Part shown: positions 2,873 to 39,982 of the stretch, one piece after another
Position numbering within the stretch: the first letter of the stretch is position 1
Layout of the letters: every line of letters starts with the position of its first letter
Assembly: GCA_016871275.1 (NCBI GenBank)
Contig: VFZG01000029.1
Coordinates: 1 to 46,008, forward strand
Length of the DNA: 46,008 nucleotides
Direction of reading: 5' to 3'
From: Acidimicrobiia bacterium
GTDB taxonomy: Bacteria > Acidobacteriota > Vicinamibacteria > Vicinamibacterales > UBA2999
Position numbers and translations under genes: made by a program
Notes under the pieces: generated by a model
Databases searched by the model: none
What the model saw: the letters and a program-made list of their open reading frames with translations, nothing else
Told to the model about the DNA's origin: nothing

Positions 2873-2920
2873 CGGCCGCAGCAGCTACCGGCACAGAAGG
2901 CGCAGACGGCGCAGAGAGCT
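2873..2920 (+). repeat. Dispersed GGC-cacagaa-type repeat, copy between hfq and deoB
   Basis: The intergenic spacer is made of runs such as GGCACAGAAGGCGCAGACGG followed by CGCAGAG. Similar GGC(C)RCAGAAGGC text occurs near 7420, 8078, 18440, 21735 and (reverse strand) 30753. It begins exactly after the hfq stop. Role unknown. Confidence 0.6.
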
Positions 2921-2934
2921 GACACACCCGCCAC

Positions 2935-4125
2935 GTGTTTTCCCGCGCCATCGTCATCGTGCTCGACAGCGTCGGCATCGGCGAGCTGCCCGATGCTGCG
3001 CTGTACGAGGATCAAGGCAGCAACACTCTCGGCAACATCGCCGCCGCCGTTCCGCTCAGCATTCCCACTCTTGCGGCGATGGGGCTGTCCAGGCTCGTCG
3101 ATCTGAAGACCCCACCCGTCGCATTGCCGACCGCCGCGTATGGCCGCATGGCGGAGCGCTCGAAGGGGAAGGATTCGGTCACCGGCCATTGGGAGTTGAT
3201 GGGGATCGTGTTGGATCGCGCGTTCCCGACCTTCCCGTCTGGCTTTCCGGCGGGGGTCATCGCCGAATTTGAGAAACGCATCGGCCGAAAATCGATCGGC
3301 AACGTGGTCGCGTCGGGCACCGCGATCATCGACGATCTCGGTCCCCAGCACATGGAGACCGGGTCGCCCATCGTCTACACCTCCGCCGACAGCGTGTTCC
3401 AGATCGCCGCGCACGAGGGTATCGTGCCGGTGCCGCAGCTCTACGCATGGTGCGAGGTCGCCTACGAGCTCACGGTCAAGGGCATGGGCCTGGGGCGCGT
3501 GATCGCCAGGCCATTCATCGGCCTGCCGGGGTCCTTTCAGCGCACTTCGAATCGGCATGACTACGCGATGCCGCCGATCGCCGAAACACTGCTCGATCGC
3601 CTGGTGGCGGCCGGGCATCAGGTCACGTCCGTCGGCAAGGTGGCGGATCTGTTCGCCGGGCGTGGCATCTCAGCCTCCAACCCCACCAAGAGCGACGCCG
3701 ACGGTATCGATCGCATTACCGCGCTGATGGCTTCGCAGGATCGCGGCGTCATCTTTGCGAACCTGGTGGACTTCGATGCCGTGTATGGTCACCGCAACGA
3801 TGCGACCGGGTATGCGGCCAATCTCGAGCGGTTCGATGCGCGTCTGGCGAACCTGTTGCCGCGGCTGCAACACGACGATGTGCTGATCATCACCGCCGAC
3901 CACGGCAACGATCCCACGACGCCCAGCACCGACCATTCGCGCGAGCATGTCCCGGTGTTGCTGGCCGGCGCGCGCGTGAACGCCGGCGTCGACATTGGCA
4001 CCCGCAGCACGTTCGCGGACCTGGGCCAGACGCTCGCAGAGAATTTCGGAGTCGGACCGCTCGCCAACGGCACCAGCTTCCTGCGTGCGATTGTGCGCGC
4101 GCAGGAGATAATGACAGGCGCATGA
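2935..4125 (+). CDS. deoB: Phosphopentomutase DeoB
   Basis: Interconverts (deoxy)ribose 1-phosphate and 5-phosphate, linking nucleoside phosphorolysis to central metabolism. The 396 residues match the family. It is an alkaline-phosphatase-superfamily enzyme with metal-binding D11 in VLDSVGIGELPDA and the region GKDSVTGHWELMG, whose Thr (about residue 83) aligns with the phosphate-carrying Thr. Near the C-terminus is the metal-binding stretch ADHGNDPTTPSTDHSREHVP. The start is GTG at 2935, which puts the first strand (FSRAIVIVLDS) at the very N-terminus as is normal. The stop overlaps the dgt start (ATGA, 4122-4125). Coupling with a dNTP triphosphohydrolase suggests a shared deoxynucleoside turnover role. 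Confidence 0.97.
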   Translation: MFSRAIVIVLDSVGIGELPDAALYEDQGSNTLGNIAAAVPLSIPTLAAMGLSRLVDLKTPPVALPTAAYGRMAERSKGKDSVTGHWELMGIVLDRAFPTFPSGFPAGVIAEFEKRIGRKSIGNVVASGTAIIDDLGPQHMETGSPIVYTSADSVFQIAAHEGIVPVPQLYAWCEVAYELTVKGMGLGRVIARPFIGLPGSFQRTSNRHDYAMPPIAETLLDRLVAAGHQVTSVGKVADLFAGRGISASNPTKSDADGIDRITALMASQDRGVIFANLVDFDAVYGHRNDATGYAANLERFDARLANLLPRLQHDDVLIITADHGNDPTTPSTDHSREHVPVLLAGARVNAGVDIGTRSTFADLGQTLAENFGVGPLANGTSFLRAIVRAQEIMTGA

Positions 4126-6821: not shown

Positions 6822-6891
6822 GAAAAGTCTGGTCTGGCGACGAAATAGCTGACAGTTCACGGTATGGTCGGGCCGTCAAGAGAGACCGGCA

Positions 6892-7449
6892 ATGCGCTTA
6901 GAGTTGTCCCATATCCGGCGGCCGGAGACCGAGTTTGCCAAGGTCTTCCAACCGGCCGATCTTCCGGCGGGGGACGAGGAGTATCGCGTTACGGCCCCGG
7001 TGGACCTCCGGATGGTGATTCACAAGGATCACGATCGCTTCCGGCTGGTGGGCACCGTGAAGACCGCGCTCGAATTGGCGTGCAGCCGCTGTCTCGAGCC
7101 GTTTGTGTTGCCGGTCGATCGCGAATTCGACTTGCGCTACCTGCCGCATGGCGCGGCGGAGCCCGAGGAGGATGCCGACGAGGAGGCCGAGGTCGAGGAA
7201 GACGACGTGGCGATGACGTTTTATCACGACGAACAGATCGACCTGAGCGAGCTGCTGCGCGAGCAGTTTTACCTGACGTTGCCGATGAAGCCGCTGTGCT
7301 CCGACGGCTGCCGGGGAATCTGCCCGCAGTGTGGAACCAACCGGAACACCGCTCCCTGCGACTGCCATCCGCAGTGGGAGGATCCCCGGATGGCTGGTTT
7401 GAAGACGTTACTGAAGCGGGCCGCAGAAGGCACAGAAGGCACGGACTAA
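6892..7449 (+). CDS. DUF177 (YceD-type) protein, presumed 23S rRNA accumulation factor
   Basis: A 185-residue DUF177/YceD-family protein, nearly always encoded just before rpmF, as here; in other bacteria the family is linked to 23S rRNA accumulation or ribosome assembly. Visible features are the CSRCLEPF motif (about residues 63-70), a very acidic stretch of Glu and Asp (about 87-104), and a C-terminal [17 protein letters not shown] region followed by CDC, which resembles a zinc site. The last residues (AAEGTEGTD) are encoded by the dispersed GGC-cacagaa repeat at 7420-7446, so the C-terminal tail looks repeat-derived. The rpmF start lies 4 bases after the stop. Confidence 0.88.
7420..7446 (+). 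repeat. Dispersed repeat copy forming the C-terminal codons of the DUF177 gene
   Basis: GCCGCAGAAGGCACAGAAGG followed by CAC and GGAC, of the same type as the hfq-deoB spacer. Here it is translated in frame as AAEGTEGTD at the end of the DUF177 protein. Confidence 0.55.
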
Positions 7450-7453
7450 GACA

Positions 7454-7636
7454 ATGCCGAACCCGAAACGCAGACACTCCAAGACCCGCGGCCGGAAACG
7501 CCGCACGCACGACGCGCTCAAGGCCGCGACACCCGGCCAGTGCCCGCAGTGCGGCGAGCCGAAGGCCGCCCACCGCGTGTGCGCGTACTGCGGCTACTAC
7601 CGCGCACGCCAAGTCAGACCTGTCACCGAAGACTAA
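7454..7636 (+). CDS. rpmF: Ribosomal protein bL32
   Basis: Large-subunit ribosomal protein of 60 residues, the normal size. The basic N-terminus [20 protein letters not shown] is characteristic, and the two pairs CPQC and CAYC form the zinc-ribbon version of bL32. It follows the DUF177 gene with a 4-base gap, and the fatty-acid cluster (plsX remnant onward) lies downstream, matching the common yceD-rpmF-plsX-fab order. Confidence 0.97.
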
Positions 7637-7643
7637 GACATCG

Positions 7644-8114
7644 ATGCGTATCGCTGTCGATGCGATGGGCGGCGATCATGCGCCGGCCCATCCCGTTGAT
7701 GGCGCCGTGGCGGCGGGGCGCCATCACGGCATCGGCGTCGATTTGATCGGCCGCGAGGCCGAGCACGTGGCGGCGGGGCAGGCTGCGGGGTTGTTCAGCG
7801 CCGGGCACACCGGGGCGAGCGTGGTTGCGGCGCATGCGGTGTTCGGCATGCTGCCGGGTGCCGATCGTCCGGCGCTGGCGCCAAGCGTGCCAGTGCAAGC
7901 CGGATCGGCCGTGTTGCCGGACGCCGGCGCGACGGTCGAGTGCAAGCCGGTGCACCTGCTGCAGTTCGCGCACATGGGGGCCAGGTAGGCGCGCACCGGG
8001 TTTGCCGGCAACGTCGCGTTGAAGTTGAGCGAAGGCCACGGGATGATGGAACGTGTGAGTACGGAAATGAGTGCATTGGCCACAGCAGGCACAGAACACT
8101 CAGACCAGTCGTGA
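7644..8114 (+). pseudogene. plsX: plsX remnant with large in-frame deletions and an internal stop
   Basis: PlsX is the phosphate acyltransferase that makes acyl-phosphate for phospholipid synthesis, usually about 330-350 residues. Three blocks of it can be read in one frame. Block 1 starts MRIAVDAMGGDHAP. Block 2 contains LFSAGHTGASVVAAHAVFGM then ADRPAL, and ends GATVECKPVHLLQFAHMGA. After a TAG stop at 7986-7988, block 3 in the same frame reads TGFAGNVALKLSEG, matching the family's DGFTGNVALK motif. Roughly 40 residues are missing between blocks 1 and 2, about 60 between 2 and 3, and the C-terminal third is gone. The frame then runs through repeat sequence to a TGA that overlaps the fabD GTG. 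It cannot make a functional PlsX. The deletion sizes are estimated from family knowledge, not from an alignment. Confidence 0.88.
8078..8106 (+). repeat. Dispersed repeat copy at the end of the plsX remnant
   Basis: GGCCACAGCAGGCACAGAAC then ACTCAGAC, of the same family as the copies at 2873 and 7420. It occupies the region where a ribosome-binding site for fabD would be expected, and no Shine-Dalgarno sequence is visible there. Confidence 0.5.
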
Positions 8115-9034
8115 TTGCCTTCGTCTTCCCCGGACAAGGCTCGCAGGCTGTGGGCATGGGCAAGGCTTTCGCCAACCAGTTCGACATCTGCCGCCAGACC
8201 TTCGCTGAAGCCGACGCGGCGCTCGGCGAATCGCTGAGCGACCTGATCTTCAACGGGCCGGCGGATCGGCTCACGCTGACCGAGAACACGCAGCCGGCCA
8301 TTCTGACCATGAGCGTCGCGGTGTGGCGCCTGTTGGACTCCAGGGGCGTGCGGCCCGCGTTGGTCGCCGGCCACAGCCTCGGTGAGTACTCGGCGCATGT
8401 CGCGGCAGGCACGCTGGCGTTTGCTGACGCGGTGCGACTGGTGCGCAACCGCGGGCGCTACATGCAGGAAGCGGTGCCGCTGGGCGCCGGCGCGATGGCC
8501 GCGATTCTCGGACTGGACGAGGCCGGCGTGAAGCAGGCCTGCGACGAAGCGGCGCAAGGTGAAGTCGTCAGCCCCGCCAACCTGAATGCGCCCGGCCAGA
8601 TTGTGGTCGCCGGCACGGCGGCCGCCGTCGCGCGGGCATCGGAGCGCGCCAGGGCGCTCGGCGCCAGGCGCGCCATTCCGCTTCTGGTGAGCGCGCCGTT
8701 CCATTGCGCGCTGATGAAGCCGGCCGAGGTTCGGCTGACGCCGGAGCTACGCTCCGCGCCGTCGTCGAATCCACGGGTGCCGGTGATTGCCAATGTTGAC
8801 GCACAGCCGAAGCGGACGGCGGCTGAGTCGATCGATGCGTTGATCGCGCAGATTGCCTCGCCGGTGCGATGGGAAAGCGTCGTTCAGCGCCTTGCGTCGG
8901 AAGGCGTCACCCGATATGTTGAAGTAGGTCCCGGCAAGGTACTGTCGGGTCTGGTGAAGAAGATCGCCGGCGGCGCCACCATTCAGAACGTCGAAGGTCC
9001 GGATGACCTTGCGGCGATCGAGGAACAGTCCTGA
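8111..9034 (+). CDS. fabD: Malonyl-CoA:ACP transacylase FabD
   Basis: Loads malonyl groups from CoA onto acyl carrier protein for fatty-acid elongation. The 307 residues are the usual length. The N-terminal oxyanion loop GQGSQ (residues 9-13 region) follows MIAFVFP, and the catalytic Ser (about 89) is in GHSLGE. The later SAPFHCALM has the catalytic His, and Gln lies in QIASPVRWES. The GTG start at 8111 is chosen because family proteins begin right at the AFVFPGQGSQ strand; the frame is open further upstream but only through plsX sequence. The start overlaps the last TGA of the plsX remnant, and the stop overlaps the fabG start (CTGA). Confidence 0.96.
   Translation: MIAFVFPGQGSQAVGMGKAFANQFDICRQTFAEADAALGESLSDLIFNGPADRLTLTENTQPAILTMSVAVWRLLDSRGVRPALVAGHSLGEYSAHVAAGTLAFADAVRLVRNRGRYMQEAVPLGAGAMAAILGLDEAGVKQACDEAAQGEVVSPANLNAPGQIVVAGTAAAVARASERARALGARRAIPLLVSAPFHCALMKPAEVRLTPELRSAPSSNPRVPVIANVDAQPKRTAAESIDALIAQIASPVRWESVVQRLASEGVTRYVEVGPGKVLSGLVKKIAGGATIQNVEGPDDLAAIEEQS
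9020..9024 (+). promoter_or_regulatory. Ribosome-binding site supporting the CTG start of fabG
   Basis: GAGGA ends 6 bases before the CTG at 9031. It lies inside the last codons of fabD, as expected for a coupled pair, and supports initiation at CTG. Confidence 0.5.
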
Positions 9035-16426: not shown

Positions 16427-16431
16427 AGGCC

Positions 16432-16503
16432 CCACAGAGACACGGAGGCACGGAGCACTTCGGCTACTTCCCAACGTAGCTCCGTGCCTCCGTGTCTCCG
16501 TGG
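16432..16503 (+). repeat. Long inverted repeat between the HDAC-like gene and leuS
   Basis: The left arm 16432-16456 starts CCACAGAGACACGGAGGCAC and the right arm 16479-16503 is its reverse complement over 25 bases with one mismatch; the loop is 22 bases. It would form a very stable hairpin in RNA on either strand. No T-run follows, so it is not a typical intrinsic terminator. A related hairpin follows carB at 45608-45711. Confidence 0.85.
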
Positions 16504-16530
16504 CGCCGTACGTTATCCTTAGCAGTTATC

Positions 16531-19035
16531 GTGGCCGAATATCACCCTCAAGAATTGGACCGGAAGTGGCAAGCCCATTGGGCGGACACGAGGGCCTTCG
16601 AAGTCACCGAGGATCCCTCGAAGCCGAAGTTCTACTGCCTTGAAATGTTCGCCTACCCGTCCGGGCACGCGCACGTCGGACACGTCCGCAACTACATCAT
16701 CGGCGACGTCGTTTCTCGCCTGAAGCGGCTGCAGGGCTTCAATGTGCTGCATCCATTCGGCTGGGACGCGTTTGGCCTGCCGGCCGAAAACGCCGCCATC
16801 AAGAACGGCATCCACCCCGAAACGTCGACGCTCGCCAACATCGCCCACATGAAGGGGCAGTTGCAGCGCCTGGGCATCAGCTACGCCTGGGGCCGTGAGC
16901 TGGCGACGTGCCTGCCGGACTATTACCGCTGGAACCAGTGGCTGTTCACGCGCATGTTCGAGAGGGGCCTGGCGTACCGCCGGCGCTCGACCGTGAATTG
17001 GTGCCCGAGCTGCAATACCGTGCTCGCCAACGAGCAGGTGATCGACGGGGCCTGCTGGCGGTGCGGCAGCCAGGTCACGCAGAAGGACCTGGAGCAGTGG
17101 TTCTTCAAGATCACGCACTACGCCGACGATCTGCTGGTGGCCGCCGACGGCCTGGCGAAGTGGCCCGAGAAGGTCCTGACCATGCAGCGGAACTGGATCG
17201 GGCGCTCGGAAGGCGCACGCATCAGGTTCCCGATTCAGGGTGCGAACGATTCGATCGAGGTGTTCACCACCCGCATCGACACCATCTTCGGCGCGACCTT
17301 CATGCTGCTGGCGCCCGAGCACGGACTGGTGTCGAGGTTTGCCAAGGAGTCCGAAGACGAACCGGCCTTCCTGGCGAAGGCGCAGAAGTATCGCGCCCAG
17401 GATCGCGCCGGCCGGCTGACCGGCGAAGTGGAGAAGGAGGGCTTCTTCACGGGGCGATTCGCGATCAATCCGTACACCGGCTTGCCCATTCCGATTTGCA
17501 TTGCGAACTATGTGCTGGGCGAGTACGGCACCGGAGCGGTGATGGGTGTGCCTGCCCATGACGACCGCGACCGCGAATTCGCCACCAAGTATGGCTTGGA
17601 GATCAAACCAGTCGTGGTCGCACGCGACGGCTCGCCCGCTGGAGCGGCCACGGACGATTGCGTGTTGGTCGAGTCAGGCGATTACAGCGGAATGCCCGCC
17701 GACGCGGCCCGCCAGGCCATCACCGAGGATGCCGAGGAGCGAGGCATCGGTCATGGCACGGTGCAGTTTCGTCTCAAGGACTGGGGCATCTCGCGCCAGC
17801 GGTACTGGGGCACGCCGATTCCGATGATGCACTGCCCGGTCGACGGCATCGTGCCGGTGCCGGACGACCAACTGCCGGTGCAGTTGCCGAAGGTGATGGA
17901 GTTCACCGGCCGCGGCGACTCACCGCTTGCCGGCGTGCCGGAGTTCGTCAACGTGACGTGTCCGAAGTGCGGTGGTCCCGCCAAACGCGAGACCGACACG
18001 ATGGACACCTTCGTCGATTCGTCCTGGTACTTCTACCGGTTTGCCGACGCGCAGAACGATCAGTTGCCGTTCGATCCGAAGAAGGTGGGCTACTGGTGCC
18101 CCGTCGACTTCTACAGCGGCGGCGTCGAACACGCCATCCTGCACCTGATTTACTCGCGCTTCTTTGCGCGCGTGTTCCACGACCTGGGCATGGTCGAGCA
18201 CACCGAGCCGTTTACGCACCTGCTGACGCAGGGCATGGTGCTCAAAGACGGTGCCGTGATGTCCAAGTCCAAGGGGAACGTCGTCGATCCTGATTCGATG
18301 ATTCAGAAGTACGGCTCCGACGCGCTGCGCCTGTATGTGATGTTCGTGGCGCCGCCGGAGAAGGAAGTCGAGTGGACGGACTCCGGGCTGGAGGGCAGCT
18401 TCCGGTTCCTGGCCCGCGTGTGGCGCGCCGCCGATCAGTGGGCCACGGAAGGCGCAGCAAGCTCGGACACCAAGGCCGCAGCAGGCACACACGCCACAAC
18501 CCGAACGGCGATCGATCACGGGGCGCTGACCAGTGCCGAGAGGGCCTTGCGTCGTAAGACGCACGACACCATCAAGCGGGTGACGAACGACATTGATGCG
18601 CGCCAGCAGATGAACACTGCCGTATCGGCGATGATGGAGCTGGTCAACGAGCTCTACGCGTTCGCCGAAAAGGGCGAGCGGTCCGCACAGGCGCCGAGGG
18701 TGGCGCGCGAAGCGATCGAGGCGCTGATCGTCATGCTGTCGCCGTTTGCGCCGCACACCATGGAAGAGCTGTGGCAGATCTACGGCCACGCCGACGGGCT
18801 GCGCGCGGCCAGGTGGCCGGTGTTCGACGCCGAGGTCGCGAAGGCCGAGGAGCTGGAGATTCCCGTCCAGGTCAACGGCAAGCTGCGGGCGGTGGTCACG
18901 GTCGCGCCTGGCGTCGAGAATCCAGAGCTGGAGCGTATTGCCCTCGCCGAGCCGAACGTGCAGGCGCACATCGCCGGCAAAACGATCAAGAAAGTCGTTA
19001 TCGTCAAGGGTAAACTGGTCTCAGTGGTGGTATGA
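16531..19035 (+). CDS. leuS: Leucyl-tRNA synthetase
   Basis: Class I synthetase charging tRNA-Leu, 834 residues. N-terminal [12 protein letters not shown], the HIGH-equivalent [13 protein letters not shown] (about residues 45-57), the CP1 editing domain ([19 protein letters not shown]), [11 protein letters not shown], and the KMSKS-equivalent [11 protein letters not shown] (about 577-587) are all present. The GTG start at 16531 is chosen over an in-frame GTG at 16492, which lies inside the inverted repeat and gives a non-family N-terminus. At about residues 637-657, just after the KMSKS region, is an odd linker with [18 protein letters not shown], encoded by a repeat-like stretch at 18440-18500. 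The stop overlaps lptE (ATGA). Confidence 0.97.
18440..18500 (+). repeat. Repeat-derived insertion inside leuS
   Basis: GGCCACGGAAGGCGCAGCAA, then GCTCGGACACCAAGGCCGCA, then GCAGGCACACACGCCACAAC: the same GGC-cacagaa type as intergenic copies elsewhere in the window. It is translated in frame as an Ala/Thr/Gly-rich linker, between the catalytic core and the anticodon-binding helices. Confidence 0.55.
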
Positions 19036-19610
19036 AGCAGGCGATCGGGACATCGGGCCATCGGGGCGTCACCCGGCGTCAGGTCCTCAGGACGTTGCCG
19101 ATCCTGGCAGCGGGCGTGAGTGCGTCGTCGTGCGGCTATGCGTTGAGCGGCCGCGGCTCGTTTCTGCCGGACTACATCAAGACGCTCGGTATCCCGATGT
19201 TCGGCAACGGCACGCCGTATCAGACCGTAGAGCAGGTCCTCACGCAGCGGGTACGACTCGAGTTCCAGAGCACGCGCCGCTACACCGTGGTGCCGACCGA
19301 CGAGAACGTGGACGGAGTGGTGCGCGGTGACATCACCGCCATCAGCATCGCGCCGGTCAGCCTCAACGAGCAGCGGCTGGCCTCGCGCGTCCGCGTGACG
19401 GTCGGCATCAAGGTCAAGTTCGAGGACGTCAGGGCCCAGAAGACGCTGTGGGAGAATCCCGCGCTGTCCTTCTCGGACGAGTACGAACTGGCGAGCCCGA
19501 GCGGCGGCACCGACGTGGCGGCCTTCATCGGCGGTGATCGCACGGCCTTCGACCGCCTGTCGGTGGACTTCGCGCGGTCGGTCGTCTCTGCTATTCTCGA
19601 GGCGTTCTAA
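19032..19610 (+). CDS. lptE: LptE-like LPS-assembly lipoprotein
   Basis: A 192-residue protein resembling LptE, the outer-membrane lipoprotein that plugs LptD during LPS insertion. The N-terminus has twin arginines ([15 protein letters not shown]), a hydrophobic stretch and SASSCGYAL, where the Cys followed by GY-L is the typical start of mature LptE. The lipobox is not ideal. The rest has the LptE pattern: [13 protein letters not shown], the [13 protein letters not shown] helix, and [16 protein letters not shown]. Position between leuS and holA is the conserved leuS-lptE-holA order of diderm bacteria, which is the best support. Confidence 0.87.
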
Positions 19611-21678: not shown

Positions 21679-21734
21679 GAGTTTCAGTCTACCTTATCGG
21701 CAACTTTCGGGCCGGGTCGCAGACGCAGAGCACC

Positions 21735-21760
21735 GGCCACGGCAGGCGCAGAAAGCCTGG
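21735..21760 (+). repeat. Dispersed repeat copy between alaS and the transglycosylase gene
   Basis: GGCCACGGCAGGCGCAGAAA followed by GCCTGG, of the same family as the copies at 2873, 7420, 8078 and 18440, in the 115-base spacer between two minus-strand genes. No promoter for the transglycosylase gene was recognised in this spacer. Confidence 0.45.
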
Positions 21761-21793
21761 AGAAAGCCCCGGTCACCGCAGCGCCGCTCAAGC

Positions 21794-29733: not shown

Positions 29734-29844
29734 ATGAACACGAGTGAGGGTCGCGACCTCCTCACGCACATGGAGTGGGCAGACTCCCGCTCCTGGCGAG
29801 CGGTGCGACAGCGGCTCAGGGCGCCGGTCGAGATGCAGCTCTAG
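29734..29844 (+). pseudogene. Short remnant resembling the N-terminus of a DinB-family protein
   Basis: A 36-codon frame starting ATG at 29734, reading MNTSEGRDLLTHMEWADSRS then WRAVRQRL. The LL-HMEWAD-R-W pattern resembles the first helix of DinB/DUF664-like proteins, which are about 150-180 residues. It stops at TAG 29842-29844, overlapping the end of prmA on the other strand. It looks like a truncated gene rather than a functional peptide; the family match is by eye and weak. Confidence 0.35.
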
Positions 29845-30752
29845 CCGCGGCGATGCAGCTCCAGCGCGATCCAGTTGTCCTCGCTGAGGCGCTGTCGTTC
29901 GGTAAATGAAGCGAACGAGGCGAGGACGCGGCCGACCTCGGTGTGATCGAAGCCACTGAGGATCAATCGGCCGTGCGGGCGGACCAAGGCGGCGATGTCT
30001 GCCGCACTCGACGTCAGCATGCCGCCGGTCAGGTTGGCGAGCACGATGTCAGCCGGCGCCGGCGGGGCCTTCCTGAAGTCGGAGACGACGAACGTGATGC
30101 TGTCCGGCAGGGTGTTGAGCCTGGCACTCGATTCGGCCGAGTCGATCGCATCCTGATCGACATCGACTCCCGTCACGCGGCGAGCGCCCATCAGCGCGGC
30201 CGCCATCGATAACACCCCCGACCCGGTACCGAGGTCGAGCACGGTCGCATCCGCCACATCGAGCGCCGACAGCAGCCGCAGGCACATGCGGGTGGTGGCG
30301 TGGTGACCGGTGCCGAACCCCATCGACGGCTCGATGACGATCACCGTCGCCTCGACGCCGTGGGCCGCGGGCGGCGGCAGGTCCCAGGGCGGCGCGATGA
30401 TAAACGCACCGGCGCGGACGGCCTTCAGTGATTGTTGCGACCTCGCGGCCCAGTCTTCATCCGGAAGATCCACGCGCTCGATCTTCAGCAGTGGCAGCGC
30501 CAGCGCGATCGCCCTGCCGGCGCGATCGCGTTCACCAGGGTCTGAAAAGCAGACGCTCCAGTGCAGGGGAGTCGGAGGCGGATCGGGAATGGGTGGATAG
30601 GTGGGATCCCACAGGCCCCCCGGAGGCAACGGCCGTTCGGCGAGATCCTGGATGGCAACCGGATTGAAATCGGTGAGGACGGCGGAGACCAGGTCTTCGG
30701 ATCCGTCCACCGCGCTGGCGCGAAGCACGAGGGCAGGCCATGACTGGCTCAT
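29841..30752 (-). CDS. prmA: Ribosomal protein L11 methyltransferase PrmA
   Basis: Trimethylates ribosomal protein L11. The protein is 303 residues. The N-terminal substrate-binding part is divergent, with an unusually Pro-rich insertion (PTYPPIPDPPPTPLHW, about residues 50-65). The catalytic half is typical: EPSMGFGTGHHATTRMCLRLL, then VLDLGTGSGVLSMAAALMGA (SAM motif I), VTGVDVDQDAIDSA, and DIVLANLTGGML, the PrmA version of motif IV. The start is ATG at 30752. Only 36 bases separate it from dnaJ upstream, so it may be the last gene of the hrcA operon; this also matches the common dnaJ-prmA-rsmE clustering. Confidence 0.93.
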   Translation of the reverse strand: MSQSWPALVLRASAVDGSEDLVSAVLTDFNPVAIQDLAERPLPPGGLWDPTYPPIPDPPPTPLHWSVCFSDPGERDRAGRAIALALPLLKIERVDLPDEDWAARSQQSLKAVRAGAFIIAPPWDLPPPAAHGVEATVIVIEPSMGFGTGHHATTRMCLRLLSALDVADATVLDLGTGSGVLSMAAALMGARRVTGVDVDQDAIDSAESSARLNTLPDSITFVVSDFRKAPPAPADIVLANLTGGMLTSSAADIAALVRPHGRLILSGFDHTEVGRVLASFASFTERQRLSEDNWIALELHRRG

Positions 30753-39857: not shown

Positions 39858-39982
39858 GCCTTCGCGAGACGCCCTAACGAGACGAGTCGCCTTCGCAATA
39901 CGCTTCGGCTGGACAAGTCCGCCTCGCAAAAACGCTTCGGCGAGACAGGTCCGCTTCGCGACACGCTTCAGCGGGACAACTC
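39858..39982 (+). repeat. Four tandem 31-32 base repeats upstream of the pseudokinase gene
   Basis: Units at 39858-39888, 39889-39919, 39920-39951 and 39952-39982 share the pattern gCCTTCGCaataCGCTTCGGCtgGACaagTC; each is partly self-complementary. They end one base before the GTG start of the next gene and occupy nearly the whole divergent region between bshC and that gene. There are no unique spacers, so this is not a CRISPR. Confidence 0.85.

Follow-up and report, generated by a model that had tools for sequence, protein, structure and literature searches.

Two head-to-tail members of a dispersed short repeat family as the apparent source of linker DNA in a leucyl-tRNA synthetase gene of an Acidobacteriota bacterium

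Palindromic elements located within protein genes of Rickettsia (RPE) were reportedly described by Ogata et al. in 2000 and 2002. According to one source, these elements occur in 19 reading frames, and the fusion in gmk can be viewed as a tolerated, neutral event (PMC2229807). They are described as being 105-146 bp long, forming long stem-loops and carrying terminal inverted repeats. Rickettsia is the group in which the capture of dispersed repeats in frame has the best documentation (PMC2229807, PMC10969869). For intragenic MITEs, the latter paper presents in-frame fusions as not unusual (PMC10969869).

The repeat considered here, found in the leucyl-tRNA synthetase gene leuS, resembles RPE in that it is short and dispersed, lying between genes and also, at seven loci by both frame tests described below, within conserved protein genes as an in-frame fusion. 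It differs from the elements of the cited descriptions in being about 33 nt long, composed of 9-nt units and non-palindromic. DNA folding of the leuS copies and four other copies of the window was no better than that of shuffled sequences (z -0.43 to -1.07), and a hairpin or palindrome in the element, considered as a candidate, was rejected on these z-scores; the long palindrome or stem-loop of RPE is thus not found in the leuS repeat. By analogy, the leuS repeat behaves like RPE, yet the absence of a palindrome sets it apart from them. Similarly to bacterial REP and MITE elements (PMC10969869, PMC3733652), it is short and multi-copy, and inverted pairs of copies were seen; in contrast to them, its unit has no hairpin. 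No report of repeat-coded LeuRS linkers was found in the literature searched, which covered few subscription journals; the nearest titles concerned Porphyromonas or organellar introns.

The stretch of DNA analysed as a whole, hereafter the window, comprises 46,008 nucleotides and contains the following leuS features:

16531 to 19035, plus strand: leuS, leucyl-tRNA synthetase (LeuS), 834 aa; Pfam tRNA-synt_1, tRNA-synt_1_2 (LeuRS editing domain) and Anticodon_1; PDB LeuRS by sequence and fold
18460 to 18531, plus strand: codons of a predicted coil, residues 644-667, between helices 617-643 and 668-691 (AlphaFold2 model)
18541 to 18912, plus strand: Anticodon_1, the anticodon-binding domain after the linker (Pfam)

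The product is assigned to LeuRS by the editing and catalytic domains (Pfam) and by model comparison: the AlphaFold2 model (mean pLDDT 90.1, pTM 0.84) has the LeuRS fold, with TM 0.92-0.93 against E. coli LeuRS with tRNA. The whole fold and the Pfam domains are shared with bacterial-type leucyl-tRNA synthetases (PDB 4aq7, 5on2, 1h3n). The differences relate to two places. T. thermophilus LeuRS possesses about 54 residues ahead of its MSKSKGN stretch that are missing from LeuS of this genome. The linker ahead of the anticodon-binding domain exceeds that of T. thermophilus and that of E. coli in length, and is repeat-coded. This linker (codons 18442-18507, in frame) is placed 3' of the catalytic core, which includes the MSKSKGN stretch, and 15 of its 22 residues are Ala, Thr or Gly, just where the original prediction had located a segment rich in these residues.

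The GTG at 16531 is the likely start of leuS; the listed open reading frame begins at 16492, within an inverted pair of CACGGAG-type octamers located just upstream of the gene (16428-16507; 29-nt arms, 93% complementary). This octamer pair has 85 genome matches at no more than two mismatches vs 36 in the reversed control, and a plasmid search with it gave no match. As a source of the linker the octamer family was rejected, being a separate family. On the other side of leuS, the start of lptE (19044-19067) reads through a ATCGGGCC-type octamer array (AIGTSGHRG); arrays of this type also occur, weakly (reversed control, 19 matches vs 10), at L188:12720 and L292:10852.

The linker DNA had been predicted to match a GGC-cacagaa repeat family seen between genes. 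With respect to literal strings this did not hold, since no enrichment was found (GGCNCACAGAA, 3 matches vs 3.1 expected; GGCACAGAA with at most one mismatch, 9 vs 9.8), while membership of the family itself stood, profiles and matrix without leuS placing the linker above their nulls. The shared pattern, CCAGGGCCRCAGMAGGCACAGMNGGCTCAGACC, was first drawn from weak blastn matches of the leuS linker in its own genome; the repeat consensus approximates to this pattern and consists of 33 nt, about three 9-nt units of GGCNCAGNN. A scan with the pattern gave the window copies at 2885, 7415, 8074 and 30754 and others, as well as two 33-nt stretches of leuS that directly follow one another, at 18437 and 18470. 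The model R1 was built from eight repeat copies with leuS excluded. The two leuS copies are as follows:

18437 to 18469, plus strand: repeat copy 1 in leuS, AGTGGGCCACGGAAGGCGCAGCAAGCTCGGACA; R1 19.8 bits, ungapped matrix 29.3 bits
18470 to 18502, plus strand: repeat copy 2 in leuS, CCAAGGCCGCAGCAGGCACACACGCCACAACCC, in head-to-tail arrangement with copy 1, 33 nt apart; R1 14.0 bits, ungapped matrix 23.3 bits

In the window R1 ranked its four training copies first (26.5-30.2 bits) and the two leuS stretches next, 18439-18468 with E 4.4e-5 and 18471-18493 with E 0.0033. Over 61 sources amounting to 1,209,396 bases of the same genome (cmsearch), the leuS copies obtained E 0.0012 and 0.086; these values are rough owing to a shortened calibration, and copy 2 is weak in 1.21 Mb. 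The scores of the ungapped matrix, a form suited to an element of fixed length, were reached by none of 2,414,888 reversed and none of 2,414,888 Markov-simulated positions. Of the 60 stretches searched besides the window, 19 had been picked for R1 matches, and real-copy counts there are enriched, with the nulls unaffected.

A mild circularity attaches to these models, some training copies having been obtained via patterns prompted by blastn matches of the leuS linker. A matrix trained only on the four other window copies gave the leuS copies 27.3 and 20.5 bits, the top of 2,414,888 reversed positions being 19.1. With a profile of the same four copies over 446 kb, leuS copy 1 ranked ninth (E 0.15) and the second leuS match had E 7.1 (best reversed, E 1.0); the eight-copy profile gave E 0.022 and 2.4 (best reversed, 0.42). 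The four-copy model agrees with the eight-copy result, one of its four copies (yceD) being itself coding. Exact GGCACAGAA is present in three of the four window training copies and absent from the leuS linker.

Low-complexity linkers are common, and in a GC-rich genome a disordered linker rich in Ala, Thr and Gly might resemble a GC-rich 9-nt repeat by chance. Such a convergence is favoured by blastn, which alone puts the leuS linker at background level: its best non-self match in its own genome has E 0.034 (121 nt query), no better than that of an ordinary linker from genus mate G007, searched as a control in its own genome (best other E 0.010, 90 nt query). Tandem Repeats Finder likewise reported nothing in the leuS linker. 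Against it stand the two sets of null positions, none of which attains the score of either copy, and the exact 33-nt register of the two copies. Codon choice points the same way. Codons ending in A, otherwise rare in leuS, make up 8 of the 22 in the linker vs 43 of 812 elsewhere in the gene (Fisher p 1.9e-5), and GCA or ACA account for 6 of 13 Ala and Thr codons in the linker vs 3 of 125 in the rest of leuS (p 1.5e-5); such codons are expected because the DNA would have been copied from a CA-rich repeat. Moreover, the linkers of the seven readable genus mates contain no R1 match and score at most 7.4 bits with the matrix. Convergence is therefore regarded as very improbable. On the level of sequence comparison it is confirmed that the LeuRS linker DNA is made up of two members, arranged head to tail, of a dispersed family of repeats about 33 nt long, and the repeat origin proposed for the linker is supported, two tandem family members lying above every null position.

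The two leuS copies share 15 of 33 bases with each other. Compared with the other 55 copies they have a median of 21 of 33 identical bases, and those 55 among themselves a median of 22. The frame used in leuS is the third forward frame of the repeat, with the consensus RATEGTEGSD, and five of the six consensus frames are free of stops.

Besides leuS, the following family members were identified in the window:

2885 to 2917, plus strand: family copy located after an 85-aa ORF that ends at 2872 and before a phosphopentomutase-like ORF, 2935-4122 (Pfam Metalloenzyme); R1 training copy, 26.5 bits
7415 to 7447, plus strand: family copy coding the last residues of YceD (ORF 6892-7449); 28.9 bits as R1 training copy; assigned to the 3' end of the gene
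8074 to 8106, plus strand: family copy just before an acyl-transferase gene, whose domain starts at about 8120; 27.2 bits as R1 training copy; outside recognised coding sequence
21731 to 21763, plus strand: weak further copy outside recognised coding sequence; R1 12.8 bits, matrix 19.8 bits
30754 to 30786, minus strand: family copy adjoining the start of a PrmA-like gene (29841-30752, minus strand; Pfam PrmA); R1 training copy, 30.2 bits; outside recognised coding sequence

An intergenic position was ruled out for the copy at 7415, which codes the end of yceD. The stop codon follows right after the repeat-coded residues, which are read in the same repeat frame as in leuS and lie beyond the Pfam YceD domain (residues 54-173 of 185 aa). 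Pfam Acyl_transf_1 starts at residue 61 of ORF 7940-9034. In the same region (6864-7988), the best stretch of a PlsX-like Pfam FA_synthesis match stops at profile position 162 of 324, near 7982; plsX may be shortened or split, as judged from this alignment, with the acyl-transferase domain starting near 8120. A tandem repeat with a period of 32 and 3.2 copies is located at 39881-39979.

In the genome as a whole, R1 gave 33 matches at E 0.001 or better, and a codon-usage test places 42 of the 57 copies scoring at least 18 bits outside both coding frames and gene 3' ends. The R1 family is dispersed, with many copies, mostly outside genes. Head-to-tail neighbours 33 nt apart also occur at L268, and there are three inverted pairs whose two copies are no more than 150 nt apart. 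Among the 57 copies, the first frame test puts 11 copies (8 loci) inside genes, and the second puts 10 copies (8 loci) there and assigns 5 more to the 3' ends of genes. Both tests agree on seven in-gene loci: leuS (two copies), UvrA, an amidohydrolase, PurD, an APH-family kinase, an esterase and a HupE/UreJ-like protein; a helicase (L260) and L285:8855 were flagged by one test each. In UvrA (L298:10000-10080) an inverted pair of family copies, in frame, coincides with about 37 extra residues relative to PDB 2r6f. The APH-family kinase has 6 extra residues at its copy compared with PDB 3csv, and PurD has a divergent stretch with no gain in length compared with PDB 5vev. At L285:8504-8536, flagged as in-gene by neither test, the opposite strand of a copy falls within the hydrophobic N-terminal part of an ORF (FLISVFSVPSAAQA) and resembles a contribution to a signal peptide.

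Among 60 genomes, own included, R1 matches at E 0.001 or better are patchy, being present in 7 and absent from 53, under stricter filters with 118 scored candidates per genome; the counts are 33 in the genome studied, 70 in G007, 21 in G008, 23 in G036, 2 in G032 and 1 each in G001 and G002. At the weak threshold of E 1, matches are found in 9/9 genomes of the genus. Genus mate G007 carries head-to-tail arrays of 34 nt and genus mate G008 arrays of 36-38 nt. In the latter, four 36-nt tandem copies (L305:200-430) interrupt a DUF1015 domain in frame, so that the peptide GKSASSASSAAL is repeated with small changes.

This distribution bears on the direction of transfer. Similarity in itself gives no direction and several copies are coding, so the family might have arisen from the leuS linker, or from another gene, and then spread. 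Yet all seven readable genus mates lack the repeat in leuS, while G007 and G008 hold the numerous matches given above, and the leuS copies are ordinary rather than central members of the family. An origin of the family in leuS or another gene is accordingly considered exceedingly improbable.

The linker had also been predicted to vary among relatives, and it does. Between fixed markers the region measures 42 residues here vs 30 in 7/7 readable genus mates (eight were examined; G001 gave weak matches only, best E 2.5e-17), and in G008 (L021) 10 codons separate Trp from Ala-Ile-Asp vs 22 in this genome. Over 134 readable of 135 loci the length ranges from 14 to 44, the 135 being two collections in which the own locus and some genomes are counted twice and L068 is unreadable. 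In an alignment of 43 LeuS sequences, five segments vary clearly in length, and the linker is the fifth of them. No strain of the same species was found among the genomes compared. Conservation across distant LeuS proteins, which would have contradicted the original prediction, was not observed, the loop varying in length as stated; the first reading of the sequence is supported as essentially right.

The best explanation, held with high though not complete confidence, is that the LeuRS linker represents an in-frame capture of two members of the repeat family by a disordered, variable loop, tolerated and passive. Since the repeat is about 33 nt long and built of 9-nt units, its insertion would add whole codons. 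It would have landed in the disordered, length-variable loop between the two helices, and would have been kept because nearly every soluble sequence is tolerated there. As the two copies span nearly all 22 codons, the repeat has probably overwritten the native linker and not just interrupted it. We infer the capture event itself, its direction from repeat to gene, this overwriting and the near neutrality of the outcome. The linker is taken to be passive, without a new catalytic role.

On the other hand, the extension could have been selected as altering LeuRS, for example in tRNA handling or partner binding. The linker adjoins the anticodon-binding domain, and its frame has been kept open although the two copies have fewer than half of their bases in common. 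The structural and comparative data speak against such a domestication: the sole LeuS segment with pLDDT below 50, residues 647-654, lies in the coil and forms part of the extension, no sequence conservation of the loop is evident over the 134 loci, its length varies from 14 to 44, and the same loop carries other repeats in other genomes. Functional domestication is thus thought unlikely, and tolerance is enough to explain the repeat in leuS without a useful new function.

Four further LeuS linkers of repeat-like appearance were chosen by eye and each searched in its own genome, some of the matches being both strands of one place. The linker of L077 (FW602_bin.51; G066) is a palindrome; of its 61 matches at E 0.01, two are its own place (best other 1.1e-14). 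That of L110 (JOPF213; G067) has 44 matches including itself (best other 1.3e-9). The G036 linker, a GGGAACC-like array, has 25 others at E 0.01 (best 3.4e-7), and the G040 linker, a CAGCCAT-like array, has 9 (best 6.1e-8), three from one array. The controls consisted of the ordinary G007 linker, for which no match besides itself reached E 0.01 (best 0.0102), and the linker of this window searched in G036, with none at E 0.1. The leuS repeat described here does not resemble the other four (45, 263, 296 and 225 of 300 shuffles were as good). A mutual unrelatedness of all captured repeats was dropped as a proposition, as the G066 and G067 repeats are slightly alike (2 of 300 shuffles attained their score, without correction for 15 pairs). 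Five genomes therefore hold at least four kinds of multi-copy repeat in one LeuS loop. LeuS loops other than the linker also hold repeat-like DNA in relatives; in a Thermodesulfovibrionia LeuS (L095), a 52-residue loop at reference residues 361-377 is partly coded by a CCCCCCTTTACTAAAGGGGGG palindrome.

The LeuRS loop may be a recurrent landing place in Acidobacteriota: in each genome, whichever short repeat is expanded (9-nt arrays, 7-nt arrays or palindromes) would repeatedly enter, in frame, the same few loops of an essential enzyme; the balance tips slightly towards this reading. If it is true, genome-specific non-coding DNA would steadily become genome-specific protein. The arrays seen here are non-palindromic and codon-compatible and are located in leuS as well as in other core genes, in a group for which the literature searched gave no such report. 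The emergence of protein sequence out of non-coding repeats would hereby become directly testable, with one loop, many genomes, an essential enzyme and a simple assay.
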